Notes under the pieces: generated by a model
Told to the model about the DNA's origin: nothing
What the model saw: the letters and a program-made list of their open reading frames with translations, nothing else
Databases searched by the model: none
In this document: piece by piece, positions 3,057 through 17,321 of the stretch
Position numbering within the stretch: the first letter of the stretch is position 1
How the letters are laid out: each line of letters starts with the position of its first letter
Source of the DNA: a virus
Reading direction: 5' to 3' (one strand)
DNA length: 33,701 nt
Virus record (IMG/VR): IMGVR_UViG_3300042309_000364
Location: 1 to 33,701 of that record
Translations under genes and position numbers: made by a program

Positions 3057-3194
3057 TTCCTTAATTCCAAAGGATATTATAATTGCCCCATAGATAAAAA
3101 TAAAAGTTGGTATGCCAACTAAAAAGAAAAAGATTAATTGAAAAACCCAATTTAATTTTTTCATATTGCATCGTGAGTATACTTTATTCATCAT
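3006..3194 (-). CDS. small membrane protein, last gene of the leftward block
   Basis: 62 residues with a long hydrophobic stretch (residues about 14-50: FQLIFFFLVGIPTFIFIYGA, then ISFGIKELFTFIF) that could cross the membrane once or twice, followed by a basic tail. The start at 3194 lies inside the end of the upstream gene. A second Met at residue 11 (MKKLNWVF) would give a more typical membrane N-terminus. A role in lysis (holin-like) or superinfection exclusion is possible but unsupported. Confidence 0.45.
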   Translation of the reverse strand: MMNKVYSRCNMKKLNWVFQLIFFFLVGIPTFIFIYGAIIISFGIKELFTFIFRRGKVNLDNR

Positions 3195-3387
3195 AGCGTT
3201 TTAATTCAATATAATAAACATTTTGTGGATTTGCGTAAGCTGCCTTTGTTACTTCATTAAACATAGTTTTAATAGCTCTGCTTTTATCTGCTTTAGATTT
3301 ATTGTAAATGCCTAAACTTTTTTCTAATTTGCCATTTCGGTATACTTCAATATGCGTGTAACTTGCATATGTTGCTGTTTTAGCCAT
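3184..3387 (-). CDS. conserved small phage protein, copy 2 of family B
   Basis: 67 residues beginning MAKTATYASYTHIEVYRNG and ending YYIELKRYDE. Nearly the same protein is encoded on the opposite strand at 7700-7900; I count about 53 of 66 aligned residues identical. Function unknown. The pattern of short strands and one helix is consistent with a small alpha/beta fold. It lies 15 bp downstream of a family A gene that is duplicated in the same way, so the pair appears to have been copied as a unit. Confidence 0.7.
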   Translation of the reverse strand: MAKTATYASYTHIEVYRNGKLEKSLGIYNKSKADKSRAIKTMFNEVTKAAYANPQNVYYIELKRYDE

Positions 3388-3402
3388 AATTGTTTTTTAA
3401 AT

Positions 3403-3597
3403 TTATCCCAACCACAATCTAGTTTTATCGGGATTTTCCATGTTTCTATTTAATACCGTTGGCAGTTTGTGCATAGCTTTAAATTCTGCTTCTGGTATTT
3501 CTTTGCCATCAACAAGGTAAAAGCCTTTTCCATTACGCCTAATATAAGTAGTATAGCGTAAGGCATACAAGTGTTTTAGATATTGTATTGCGGTCAT
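3403..3597 (-). CDS. conserved small phage protein, copy 2 of family A
   Basis: 64 residues, MTAIQYLKHLYALRYTTYIRR onward, with GKGFYLVDGKEIPEAEFKAM in the middle. The paralogue at 6838-7032 on the other strand differs at 6 of 64 positions, and the last 32 residues are identical. I do not recognise a named family. High identity between two copies in one small genome implies recent duplication or selection on both. It is part of the leftward operon of small genes. Confidence 0.7.
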   Translation of the reverse strand: MTAIQYLKHLYALRYTTYIRRNGKGFYLVDGKEIPEAEFKAMHKLPTVLNRNMENPDKTRLWLG

Positions 3598-6837: not shown

Positions 6838-7032
6838 ATGACCGCACAAGAATACATTAAACACTTATACGCTTTACGATATACAACATACATACGACGC
6901 GAGGGAAAAGGATACTACCTTGTTGATGGTGTAGAAATACCCGAAGCGGAATTTAAAGCAATGCATAAACTTCCAACTGTATTAAATAGGAATATGGAGA
7001 ACCCCGATAAAACAAGACTATGGCTCGGATAG
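6838..7032 (+). CDS. conserved small phage protein, copy 1 of family A
   Basis: 64 residues, MTAQEYIKHLYALRYTTYIRR onward, ending NPDKTRLWLG. It is 58/64 identical to the product of the leftward gene at 3403-3597. Its last 13 bp overlap the start of the cytosine methyltransferase gene in another frame, so translation of the two is probably coupled. Role unknown; conservation of GKGYYLVDG and EIPEAEFKAMHKLPTVLN in both copies points to a functional core. Confidence 0.7.
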   Translation: MTAQEYIKHLYALRYTTYIRREGKGYYLVDGVEIPEAEFKAMHKLPTVLNRNMENPDKTRLWLG

Positions 7033-7699: not shown

Positions 7700-7900
7700 A
7701 TGAAAACAGCAACTTACGCAAGTTACACGCATATTGAAGTTTACCGCAATGGAGAACTAGAAAGGACTTTGGGGATATACAATAAATCAAAGGTTGATAA
7801 AAATAGATTCATTAAAGCCATGTTCAATGAAGTTAGCAAGGCGGCTTACGCAAATCCACACAATATTTATTACATACAATTAAGAAGATATGATGACTAA
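7700..7900 (+). CDS. conserved small phage protein, copy 1 of family B
   Basis: 66 residues, MKTATYASYTHIEVYRNG onward, ending LRRYDD. About 80 % identical by eye to the leftward gene product at 3184-3387. It follows the methyltransferase by 11 bp, and its end overlaps the next start. Function unknown. Confidence 0.7.
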   Translation: MKTATYASYTHIEVYRNGELERTLGIYNKSKVDKNRFIKAMFNEVSKAAYANPHNIYYIQLRRYDD

Positions 7901-8081
7901 ACAATGCTCACGCTGCAAGGTAGTGCAGCCAACAACAAACTATTACAAACACCCACATGGGGAACTTAAATTAAATCCGTATTGCAAAGAATGTCAGAAA
8001 GCAATAAGCAATAGGCATCACCCTAAGTACAATAAACAATCAATGTATTTTGAATGGGATGTAAAAAATGTAACTATATGA
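7890..8081 (+). CDS. stand-alone Cys4 zinc-finger protein
   Basis: 63 residues (start could be the Met at either 7890 or 7893). CSRCKVVQPTTNYYKHPHG, then YCKEC, forms a finger clearly related to the N-terminal finger of the HNH-type protein at 6313-6834 (same CxxC...FYKH/YYKH...CKEC layout). No nuclease core follows. It may be a regulatory or adaptor finger, or the remnant of a decayed HNH gene. The stop overlaps the next gene's ATG (ATGA). Confidence 0.55.
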   Translation: MMTKQCSRCKVVQPTTNYYKHPHGELKLNPYCKECQKAISNRHHPKYNKQSMYFEWDVKNVTI

Positions 8082-8545
8082 CACACAAAGAACGCTATAA
8101 CGATGCTCATTTGGATTGGTTTAAAATGCGCTATCCTGCACCATACAAAGATGGACATTATGCGCCGCCTGTAATGCCTAAAATAAAGACCGCCAATGGT
8201 TTAACGCGCTACATAGTAAACATATTATTTTGGCTTCCACATACAAACGGAACGCGAGTAGCTTCAACAGGCAGGTTAATTGATGCACAAGAAAAACAAC
8301 AAAGCGGAACTATTTTAACCGTTAAAAAGTTTATACCAGGAACAACCCGCAAAGGAACGGCGGATGTTACGGCAACCATTAAAGGAAGATCGGTTAAATG
8401 GGAAGTTAAGGTAGGTAAAGACCGCCCAAGTGAATTTCAATTGCGAGAACAACAAATGGAGCAACAAGCTGGGGGGTATTATTTCTTTGTACATACTCCA
8501 GATGAATTTTGGCAGCAATATGATGAGGTTATAAATAGTTTATAG
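8078..8545 (+). CDS. PD-(D/E)XK-type nuclease (VRR-NUC/resolvase-like)
   Basis: I prefer the ATG at 8078, which overlaps the preceding stop as ATGA and gives 155 residues; an in-frame ATG at 8054 would add eight. The C-terminal half holds the nuclease core: KGTADVTATIKGRSVKWEVK carries an Asp and, one strand later, the E-V-K of the PD-(D/E)XK motif. SEFQLREQQM and GGYYFFVHTPDEF follow, as in VRR-NUC and archaeal-type resolvase folds. Likely roles are processing branched DNA during replication or packaging, or acting with the RecT-like annealing protein. Confidence 0.65.
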   Translation: MTHKERYNDAHLDWFKMRYPAPYKDGHYAPPVMPKIKTANGLTRYIVNILFWLPHTNGTRVASTGRLIDAQEKQQSGTILTVKKFIPGTTRKGTADVTATIKGRSVKWEVKVGKDRPSEFQLREQQMEQQAGGYYFFVHTPDEFWQQYDEVINSL

Positions 8546-8553
8546 TATATTTG
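8546..8553 (+). promoter_or_regulatory. TATATTTG -7 box upstream of the structured RNA
   Basis: TATATTTG is a perfect TAnnTTTG match that begins at the first base after the nuclease stop codon. A convincing -33 TTTG is not seen at the right distance, so promoter strength is uncertain. Transcription would start near 8560, just at the beginning of the hairpin series. Confidence 0.5.
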
Positions 8554-8559
8554 TACAAC

Positions 8560-8658
8560 GGTTCAGAAATAGTATTGCAGGTTATTTCTGAATTTATTGT
8601 TTAACAAACGCAAGTTAAACATAACCCCCTTCGCTGCAATCGTTGGGGGTTCTTTATT
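8560..8658 (+). ncRNA. structured RNA: three hairpins with a predicted kissing loop
   Basis: Hairpin 1 pairs 8562-8571 with 8583-8592 (10 perfect base pairs, 11-nt loop). Hairpin 2 pairs GTTTAAC 8599-8605 with GTTAAAC 8614-8620 (7 bp, 8-nt loop). Hairpin 3 pairs AACCCCC 8623-8629 with GGGGGTT 8645-8651 (7 bp, 15-nt loop) and ends in CTTTATTT. Loop 1 contains ATTGCAG (8574-8580) and loop 3 contains CTGCAAT (8634-8640), which are exact reverse complements, so a 7-bp kissing interaction is possible. No open frame fits. It could be a small RNA or a leader that attenuates the replication genes downstream. Confidence 0.6.
8623..8658 (+). terminator. intrinsic-type terminator at the end of the structured RNA
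   Basis: A GC-rich 7-bp stem (AACCCCC/GGGGGTT) followed by CTTTATTT. The T-tract is interrupted, so termination may be partial and regulated, particularly because its loop can pair with the first hairpin. It lies 21 bp before the next gene. Confidence 0.55.
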
Positions 8659-8678
8659 TACACAATTAAATTAAATAT

Positions 8679-8855
8679 ATGGTAAATTGTTGGGTAATTA
8701 TTAAAGGTCAAGAAAAAGAATTTTACATTTTAGATTCGTATTTATACGATTTAGATACAAGGTACATTGGCTATTATGAAGGAAACAAAGAATTGGTTAC
8801 AATTAGAGTTGAAGATATTTTTTCATTAGGTAAAAAAACAAGATTTATACAATGA
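8679..8855 (+). CDS. 58-aa hypothetical protein before the primase gene
   Basis: MVNCWVIIKGQEKEFYILDS and so on, 58 residues, beta-rich, with no membrane segment. The stop overlaps the ATG of the large replication gene at 8852 (ATGA), so translation is likely coupled. It lies just downstream of the structured RNA, which may control it. Family not recognised. Confidence 0.5.
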   Translation: MVNCWVIIKGQEKEFYILDSYLYDLDTRYIGYYEGNKELVTIRVEDIFSLGKKTRFIQ

Positions 8856-11005
8856 TATTTACAAGATACCAATCGCTATTTAAAACAAATGAACCTGAAA
8901 TAATAGAGTTTCATCAATTTGTTAATGAATTAACAACACATAATCCAATCTTTGATGAAATAAGAAACGAAACGGTTAAAGAGCGTAAAGATTATTTAAA
9001 AAAGAACTTACCAGGATATTGTTTTGCGGGTGTATTCTCAAACCGTTCAGAACGAGGATTTGAAAAGCATTCAGGTGCGGCAATACTTGACTTTGATAAA
9101 ATACCCAAAGAACAATACACGCCTTTGTTTTTAGAATTGTGTAAACTTCCATTTATACTTGCTGCATGGCGTTCACCTTCTGGAAATGGAATTAAAGCAC
9201 TTATAAAAATACCAGCATCAACACCTGCGGAGCATTCGCTTCGGTTAAAAACATTTGCGTTATATTTTGAATCTAAATATTTAGACCTTGATGCAGATGT
9301 TTGTCGCTTTTGTTTTAGTTCTTATGATCCGACACCTTACATTAATGAATTAGCCGAAGAATTTACTTTAATGTTTTCCGAACAAGACCTTAACAAAAAA
9401 GCGGAATACAATAATGAAATAGTAAACGCAATAGGCGATGAGGCTAAAATAATTAACATAATAACTAACTTTAAGCGTTCAACAACTTTTATTGAAGGGC
9501 AACGCAATAAGCATACATTTATGTTGGCTTCGCATTTTTGCGAATATGGTGTAACAAAAAACGCTTGTATTGATTACTTTAAAAATAACATTTGGACTAC
9601 AGATTTTATAGAAGAAGGCACAAAAGCAATTAATTCAGCATATCGTACACGAAAGGCAAATAGTAAACAATTAGAAGATAGAGAAAAAGAGCAAACGCAA
9701 GATGATATACATTACCCATTTGACATATTTCCAACTAAAATAAGAGAGTCAATATTTGACGTAAGCCGCGAACTTTCTCTTAACCCTATATTCCTTGCAA
9801 CGGCAGGACTTTGGACTGCATCTTCATTGGCAGGGAATGCTTATGTTTCAGAATTTGGCTCAAGTGCAAAGAATATTTTATTCTGCCTTATGATCGCACC
9901 TGTATCGGTTGGTAAAACACCAGCTTTTAAGTCCATGTGTGAGCAACCATTGAGCGATACTTTGCAACGCGAGGATCAAGAATATAAAAATAAGTTAGCT
10001 GAATGGAACGATGAAAGAATGGCGGCTTTATCTTCCAAAAGTCAATTTACTAAAGCCAAGCCAAGAAGATTTCATCCGTTTGCAGTTGATGGAACTACTG
10101 AAGGTTATATTGCCCTTTGCCAAGATCAGCCAAACGGAATGGGAGTTTATCATGATGAAGCTGAATCAATATTAAACGCTGGGGCGCACAAGTCTAACAA
10201 CGATTCAATCTCATTTTTTACTCAAGCATTTAGTGGCGGAAGATATACTCAAATTCGTGCCGATAGGGATAAAGAGCGTGTAGTTCAAAATCTAAACATT
10301 AACCTTTTAATGGGAACGCAACCAAGCCGATTAACTAATATATTTACGATGGATAAGATTGAGAGCGGCTTTGCTTCACGTTTCCTTATGGTTCAATCCG
10401 ATTATATACAATTAAACGTAAACGCAGATCCATTTACACAACAAAGGCAAATGTGCGCCGAATGGTCTAACCTTGTTTTGTCTTTGTACGACATTAATAA
10501 AACGTACAGTAACAATGATGTAAACCCTATAAAAATACAAATAACCGATTCTGCAAAGGAATTATATCGCAAATACTTTCAAGGCTCTTTAATGGCAGCT
10601 AATGACCGTATAAACAACCGCATCGAAGATTATATTAAAGGTGCAGAAGCTAAGATGTCGGCGTACTTTCCAAGATTAACGCAAATAATAGCGATTATTA
10701 ACAATCCAATAAACCCAATAATAGACGAAAATACTATTGAATTGGGATGGCAGCTTTACCGTTATCATGCACAATCAACGGTTAATATATTAAAAAACTT
10801 GCATAAAACAGTAGAAACTGGGCTACCTTTAGAGTTAGATAATTTGTATAATAGCTTACCTTTTGAGTTTACTTATTCTGAAGCCGAGCAGGTTTGTAAG
10901 AAAATAAATTTACCTGACAAGAAATTTAGAACCGCTTTGAGGCGAAAAGACTTTAAGATATTGTTTAGTAAAACAGATCATGGAAAATACAAGAAGGTGC
11001 ATTAA
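8852..11005 (+). CDS. replication protein with BT4734-like (VirE-N) primase part and DUF3987
   Basis: 717 residues. The N-terminal ~170 residues resemble the BT4734/VirE-N domain, a primase-polymerase-like fold: ILDFDKI (78-84), WRSPSGNGIKALIK (106-119) and DADVCRFCFSSYDP (147-160). A middle helical part (200-270) is primase-C-like. From about 285 to 660 it matches DUF3987, with the P-loop-like APVSVGKT at 349-356 and VYHDEAES further on. This combination is common in Bacteroidota phages and mobile elements and is thought to prime and perhaps unwind at the origin. The candidate origin lies directly downstream. The gene ends inside a strong terminator. Confidence 0.8.
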   Translation: MIFTRYQSLFKTNEPEIIEFHQFVNELTTHNPIFDEIRNETVKERKDYLKKNLPGYCFAGVFSNRSERGFEKHSGAAILDFDKIPKEQYTPLFLELCKLPFILAAWRSPSGNGIKALIKIPASTPAEHSLRLKTFALYFESKYLDLDADVCRFCFSSYDPTPYINELAEEFTLMFSEQDLNKKAEYNNEIVNAIGDEAKIINIITNFKRSTTFIEGQRNKHTFMLASHFCEYGVTKNACIDYFKNNIWTTDFIEEGTKAINSAYRTRKANSKQLEDREKEQTQDDIHYPFDIFPTKIRESIFDVSRELSLNPIFLATAGLWTASSLAGNAYVSEFGSSAKNILFCLMIAPVSVGKTPAFKSMCEQPLSDTLQREDQEYKNKLAEWNDERMAALSSKSQFTKAKPRRFHPFAVDGTTEGYIALCQDQPNGMGVYHDEAESILNAGAHKSNNDSISFFTQAFSGGRYTQIRADRDKERVVQNLNINLLMGTQPSRLTNIFTMDKIESGFASRFLMVQSDYIQLNVNADPFTQQRQMCAEWSNLVLSLYDINKTYSNNDVNPIKIQITDSAKELYRKYFQGSLMAANDRINNRIEDYIKGAEAKMSAYFPRLTQIIAIINNPINPIIDENTIELGWQLYRYHAQSTVNILKNLHKTVETGLPLELDNLYNSLPFEFTYSEAEQVCKKINLPDKKFRTALRRKDFKILFSKTDHGKYKKVH

Positions 11006-11023: not shown

Positions 11024-11245
11024 ATAGTTACCAATAATTACCATAAATGCACACGCGAAACCTTTGCTACCATTGAATAGTTACCATAATTGGTAACTTT
11101 ACTATGATATAAAATTTAATATATCTCTTAGTGTAATTATATAAATATAAGCACTACGTCAAAATTGGTAATTATGGTAACTATCCGCACTGGCATTGAG
11201 TTTCAGCCGTACATTAATAGTAATTATGGTAATTATGGTAAAATT
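11024..11245 (+). repeat. inverted arrays of a 9-bp repeat around an AT-rich core: candidate replication origin
   Basis: The 9-mer GGTAAYTAT occurs six times exactly. Three copies are in reverse orientation on the left (11024-11032, 11034-11042, 11077-11085) and three forward on the right (11167-11175, 11176-11184, 11228-11236). Degenerate forward copies lie at 11092, 11219 and 11237. The intervening 11101-11160 is strongly AT-rich. There is no gene from 11006 to about 11294. Iterons flanking a melting region beside the replication gene fit an origin; binding sites for a transcription factor are the alternative. Confidence 0.6.
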
Positions 11246-17307: not shown

Positions 17308-17321
17308 CTATTTAGAGTATG
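17308..17321 (+). promoter_or_regulatory. start-linked motif CTATTTAGAGTATG before the tail operon
   Basis: The 14-mer includes the ATG of the gene at 17319, and its TA lies exactly 10 bp before the ATG, as at 23011, 23764 and 25901. Unlike those three, no TTTGACC is visible 24-25 bp upstream. It follows a terminator, so a promoter is expected here. Confidence 0.45.

Follow-up and report, generated by a model that had tools for sequence, protein, structure and literature searches.

A compact RNA element of three hairpins, in which the loop of the first hairpin can pair with the loop of the terminator hairpin, precedes the primase operon in a 33.7-kb virus record (33,701 nt, IMGVR_UViG_3300042309_000364; the whole stretch analysed, hereafter the window). 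Comparison with related elements showed that this loop-loop pairing, or kiss, is conserved while its sequence is not. We therefore read the element, with a probability of about 0.5, as a conserved terminator-ended kissing-loop 5′ leader of a phage replication operon that would act in cis, and that is possibly also released as a free RNA of ~100 nt. Its structure is well supported by the sequence comparisons below; its function we infer. The genes of the window and its named relatives point to a source among Bacteroidota phages.

Structure of the element in the window

All features of the element and its flanking genes lie on the + strand. The upstream ORF (8054–8545) is endonuclease-like, probably of the VRR-NUC type, with a weak match to a PHROG endonuclease. 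Its TAG stop (8543–8545) is directly abutted by a predicted −7 box, TATATTTG (8546–8553), which an earlier note on this DNA had picked out as a perfect box just upstream of the hairpins and which fits the Bacteroidota sigma-A consensus TAnnTTTG. This consensus occupies positions −12 to −5 (PMC9723704), and a recognisable −33 motif is not expected in Flavobacterium (PMC7366714). Placed accordingly, the box gives a predicted +1 at A8558, two bases 5′ of the first hairpin, and a predicted RNA of ~102 nt (8558 to about 8659), close to the ~100 nt first proposed.

The first hairpin, P1 (8560–8594), has 10 perfect base pairs (8562–8571/8583–8592) and up to 14 when G.U pairs are allowed (8560–8573/8581–8594, with G.U outside and G.U/U.G inside); the extended stem leaves exactly 7 nt as loop k, ATTGCAG (8574–8580). 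P2 (8599–8620), which is optional in the family, has a perfect 7-bp stem (8599–8605/8614–8620). The terminator hairpin P3 (8623–8651; −13.3 kcal/mol) has a 7-bp stem (8623–8629/8645–8651), above which a UU/UU internal loop is followed by a 2-bp CG/CG helix closing an exact 7-nt loop, k′, CTGCAAT (8634–8640), the complement of the P1 loop. A modest, interrupted U-tract, CTTTATTT (8652–8659), follows and gives this GC-rich hairpin the form of a terminator, with a tract poorer in T than is typical (family median, 7 T in 8). The hairpins together reach −31 kcal/mol (ViennaRNA, with the pseudoknot outside the energy) and the 7-bp loop-loop duplex −7.1 kcal/mol. The three hairpins of 10, 7 and 7 bp and the 7-nt loop complementarity claimed in the earlier note were thus all recovered, the hairpins beyond chance and the exact loop match beyond chance in a blind permutation test.

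The first downstream ORF, of 58 aa (8679–8855), starts with an ATG 27 nt 3′ of P3 and has no match in Pfam or PHROG. It is followed by the primase/helicase gene (8852–11005), encoding a BT4734-like N domain plus DUF3987, which agrees with the location before a primase operon given earlier. Elsewhere in the window, the segment 17215–17281 before the ORF at 17319 holds a second TATATTTG box and, after it, a simple terminator hairpin (AGCCCTTTG/CAAGGGGCT, T7) with no kissing loop. The window also holds a duplicated cassette, in which each of two small genes has a second copy on the opposite strand (3184–3597 on the − strand; 6838–7032 and 7700–7900 on the + strand); the proteins, MTA.EYIKHLYALRYTTYIRR... 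and M..TATYASYTHIEVYRNG..., are near-identical between copies.

Related elements found through neighbouring genes

One group of loci was found via the neighbouring genes and not via the RNA. Two of these (L003 and L015) carry the same RNA as the window between different flanking genes, one (L016) carries an altered RNA that is the nearest variant of the window's, and one (L007) has the same upstream gene and a different RNA. No element was seen at L013. In the gene-anchored loci other than L013, the RNAs differ in sequence and have one topology in common: a hairpin lies just 3′ of the −7 box, and its loop k is complementary to k′ within the loop of the terminator hairpin (the U-tract is not clear in L005).

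Comparison of the window with L016 found seven pairs changed on both sides, three in P1, three in the kiss and one in P3, with one P1 pair lost and one P3 column falling in an alignment gap. The L016 loops are GTTCGAG/CTCGAAC, so that three of the seven kiss pairs are compensated relative to the window; P2 is identical in the two. Homologues that lose both the stems and the loop match without compensation, which the earlier note named as the case against its reading, were looked for, and the opposite was found.

Mosaic joints were observed at the element (L003:5692, L007:2550, L015:3520 and L349:601–646), with either one RNA set between different genes or one promoter leading into different RNAs. 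The element may mark where gene modules have been exchanged by recombination.

Conservation of the loop-loop pairing in a large set

A large set was obtained by scanning viral contigs for the box and a T-run at a set distance, and its counts refer to the matches listed. Since the box and T-run are partly imposed by such a search, it is relevant that both are supported independently by the gene-anchored loci and by named phages. Our first custom finder, which required a perfect k/k′ match, returned at least 64 elements at a score of at least 25, with 43 different k sequences among the matches listed. Downstream of TAGTATATTNG, the full layout at a score of at least 26 was present at 26.6% of 218 distinct viral sites among the matches listed, versus 1.0% of dinucleotide shuffles.

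As a finder that demands k/k′ is circular for covariation, elements were reselected blind to the kiss, using P1, P3, the U-tract and the ATG only. A perfect match of at least 6 nt between P1 loop and P3 loop was found in cis in 41 of the 59 distinct kiss-blind elements (among the matches listed), and swapping partners among these 59 gave a mean of 1.7 and a maximum of 10 in 10,000 permutations. In an alignment of 14 members, the kissing helix is 96% paired and six of its eight pairs have changed on both sides. The covariation score of P1 plus the kiss (n = 14) is 0.548, versus 0.202 when shuffled and at most 0.108 when slid. One pair assigned to the base of P1 does not form in 10 of the 14 and is probably wrong. 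The aligned members were partly picked for having the kiss, and the kiss-blind permutation test is therefore the unbiased one. Short hairpins are common in AT-rich sequence, and a single 7-nt match noticed after inspection is weak by itself; chance hairpins in an AT-rich gap are nevertheless refuted by the compensatory changes, with the shuffle, permutation and covariation tests also against them, and we give this explanation practically no weight.

Family anatomy and downstream genes

The family has a constant order: Bacteroidota −7 box, P1 at the predicted +1, an optional P2, P3, U-tract and ATG. Among the matches listed, P1 begins between −2 and +5 relative to the predicted +1 in 52 of 64, the RNA measures 73–115 nt to the end of the terminator stem in all but one, and the longest upstream ORF stops on the TAG of TAGTATATTTG in 40 of 64, which partly explains the recurrence of this TAG. 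Median values, again among the matches listed, are −17 kcal/mol for P3 alone with 7 of 8 T, and a marginal −3.6 kcal/mol for P1, to which the kiss adds about −9 (the pseudoknot is not included in the energies). Many members have in common an AAGAA-N-TTATT-like linker, within which P2 is an optional hairpin. A TGA...GAT internal loop, which could form tandem G.A pairs, is present in 26 of 64 (among the matches listed).

The ATG follows P3 by 6–27 nt in 60 of 62 of the matches listed. This leaves little room for another promoter, so the polymerase must pass P3 to reach the gene, which favours a leader acting in cis. The same proximity, with at most about 20 nt between the end of P3 and the ATG in the majority of members (among the matches listed), could instead belong to a translational or mRNA-stability leader, whose pseudoknotted 5′ end would protect the mRNA or gate ribosome access to the ATG and whose U-tract would be an unstructured landing site for the ribosome. 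Initiation in Flavobacterium indeed proceeds without a Shine-Dalgarno sequence and is tuned by local structure (PMC6847099). However, a GC-rich stem followed by a T-run is the usual form of a terminator, and it is also found in the gene-anchored and named-phage members; we consider a leader of this kind unlikely.

About twenty downstream proteins were scanned. They matched DnaD-like helicase loaders, O-like initiators, primosomal proteins and replisome organizers, and further DnaB, a helicase and a NUMOD4-HNH endonuclease, with the DUF3987 primase in the window. As these are mostly genes of replication initiation, the element marks the entry of the replication module across unrelated initiators. 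The association, together with the few copies per genome, would also suit a cis element of DNA replication, whose transcript primes replication or opens the origin, like RNA II of ColE1 plasmids. The gap after the primase gene however contains, at 11026–11245, iteron-like repeats in direct and inverted orientation (GTAATTATGGTAA/TTACCATAATTAC). They are likely the replication origin of the window, which speaks against a primer role, and some genomes hold two or three copies of the element. No GC-skew switch was seen at the element in ten records, where the skew follows the gene strand and is thus uninformative on origin position. A replication element of this kind appears highly improbable.

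Occurrence in named phages and in bacterial genomes

Dozens of contigs carry the element, as do named phages of Polaribacter, Cellulophaga and Flavobacterium, in which it precedes replication genes or small ORFs ahead of those. In each case k has an exact complement downstream, inside the terminator hairpin: k is GGTGGAA in Polaribacter phages Danklef and Freya, CTCTCACAA in Cellulophaga phages phi13:2 and phi19:3, TGAGAGC in Flavobacterium phage elemoC, GTGAGATG in elemoA_2-5C and GTGGAGG in elemoE/F. Cellulophaga phage phi18:3 has CTTCTGAC, also with its exact complement, after the same promoter as the phi13:2 group, in which P1 is weak; phi46:3 again has CTCTCACAA, with the element before an HNH gene. 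The loop pair has been replaced at one locus among elemo A, C and E-F and between phi13:2 and phi18:3. Copies per genome are few, and where two or three are present they have different k. The element is absent from the replication region examined in Riemerella phage CRP2, and Maribacter phage Panino has only a doubtful one (by eye). DNA similarity between the window region and the named phages was limited to chance matches.

All three elemo types were isolated on one host strain, and each has its own matching loop pair at the same locus; a fixed host sequence is therefore not what k reads. An alternative to the cis leader is a stable small RNA that would be released and act in trans, binding a host protein for instance; its shape and half-life would then be served by the kiss and the capped ends, and the downstream genes would rely on leaky read-through. 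Such an RNA would fit the predicted promoter of its own, the 5′ hairpin at +1 and the 3′ terminator hairpin, the strength of the terminator without the kiss, the lack of an antiterminator, and the partly shared linker and TGA...GAT internal loop, which a protein could read. It does not need a constant site directly before unrelated types of replication genes, and loop sequences change quickly even between phages isolated on the same host strain, which makes base-pairing of the loops to a fixed target unlikely. We consider a role in trans less probable than the cis leader.

When 84,980 bacterial and archaeal genomes were searched with the element pattern, 75 matches were obtained, near background; as the pattern demands an exact box and tail, this is depletion and not proof of absence. 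The matches that scored were limited to a repeated Emticicia sequence and a single isolated site, and none of the 75 has the family layout. The element thus seems to be a trait of phages that are not resident in chromosomes, which suggests that its carriers are lytic. In L246, L269, L298, L302 and L317 the pattern matched a chromosomal sequence conserved in Emticicia/Cytophagaceae. It lies after TAGTATATTTG, shows ATTCATGC complementarity and a hairpin resembling CCCCTTCAGGGG, and may itself be a structured leader.

Proposed mechanism

The preferred reading remains the cis-acting leader. Host RNA polymerase would start at 8558; P1 would fold first, and its loop would pair with the loop of P3 while P3 emerges. 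The closed fold, with hairpins at both ends, would then set how often the polymerase stops at about 8652–8659 versus reading through into the primase operon, and the stopped transcripts would form a stable RNA of ~100 nt. That the loop pair is private to each element suggests that the kiss acts within one molecule.

The earlier note suggested a regulated terminator (attenuator) or a free small RNA. The anatomy that it described is supported; a classical attenuator with mutually exclusive folds is not, since the antiterminator is not above chance. For the pT181 or trp type, duplex energies between upstream sequence and the 5′ arm equal those of shuffles (median −3.0 vs −2.75), and the kiss and the terminator can coexist. 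No leader peptide or conserved leader ORF was seen by eye in the aligned leaders. A type III toxin-antitoxin RNA was likewise rejected, as the units are single and not tandem and the downstream genes are variable. With no competing antiterminator, a classical two-state switch is not expected; regulation, if any, would depend on folding kinetics or on a factor that recognises the fold. As P3 is also stable without the kiss, the data do not require that the kiss affects termination. The options that remain are a partial terminator tuned by the kiss, a factor-read fold and a stable free RNA with leaky read-through.

Copy sensing is a further, highly improbable, variant: the P1 loop would find its partner either in the P3 loop of the same RNA or in that of a sister transcript still being made, and RNA dosage would feed back on read-through into the replication operon. 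If so, divergence of the loop pairs would create incompatibility groups insulating co-infecting phages, as well as copies within one genome, much as in plasmid antisense control, but with one RNA as both partners.

Comparison with known RNAs and significance

No Rfam 15 family matched the element at gathering or relaxed thresholds, the only match being a tRNA elsewhere in L146, and nothing describing this RNA was found in the open-licence literature. On these two sources the architecture appears undescribed. Because the sequence changes and the loop-loop lock is what stays, usual RNA-family searches miss the element.

The preQ1 and other H-type pseudoknot riboswitches are small leader pseudoknots with a terminator or start site close by; they keep a ligand-binding sequence, whereas the phage element keeps no sequence core and has no Rfam match. 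The c4 antisense RNA and the P4 immunity RNA are small structured RNAs of temperate phages tied to early-gene control. These pair in trans with fixed targets, whereas the phage element pairs in cis, and the bacterial genomes scanned yielded no member. The pT181-type attenuator, too, is the 5′ leader of a replication gene and combines a hairpin and an intrinsic terminator with kissing-loop chemistry (PMC4878617). It kisses an antisense RNA, and its antiterminator competes with the terminator stem; the phage element kisses internally, from P1 loop to terminator loop, and no antiterminator was found. The HK022 put RNA, compared by description, is a ~70-nt RNA of two stem-loops just 3′ of an early phage promoter (PMC9378689), but it suppresses termination, by binding the zinc-binding domain of the RNA polymerase beta' subunit, and its copies are similar in sequence, whereas the phage element has a terminator of its own at the 3′ end, is variable in sequence and is defined by a loop-loop lock. 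STAXI, Flavo-1 and Pedo-repair are structured RNAs of Bacteroidota or lie near DNA-handling genes, and STAXI is a pseudoknot (PMC2864571); STAXI is tandemly repeated, unlike the phage element, and no Rfam model reached threshold.

The architecture is thus spread over unrelated phage groups, at the entry to their replication genes, in a phylum with little known phage RNA biology. Culturable phages offer natural loop swaps at a single locus, with both partners matched, which makes the role of a kissing terminator directly testable, and the elements are a potential source of mutually independent regulatory parts for Bacteroidota.
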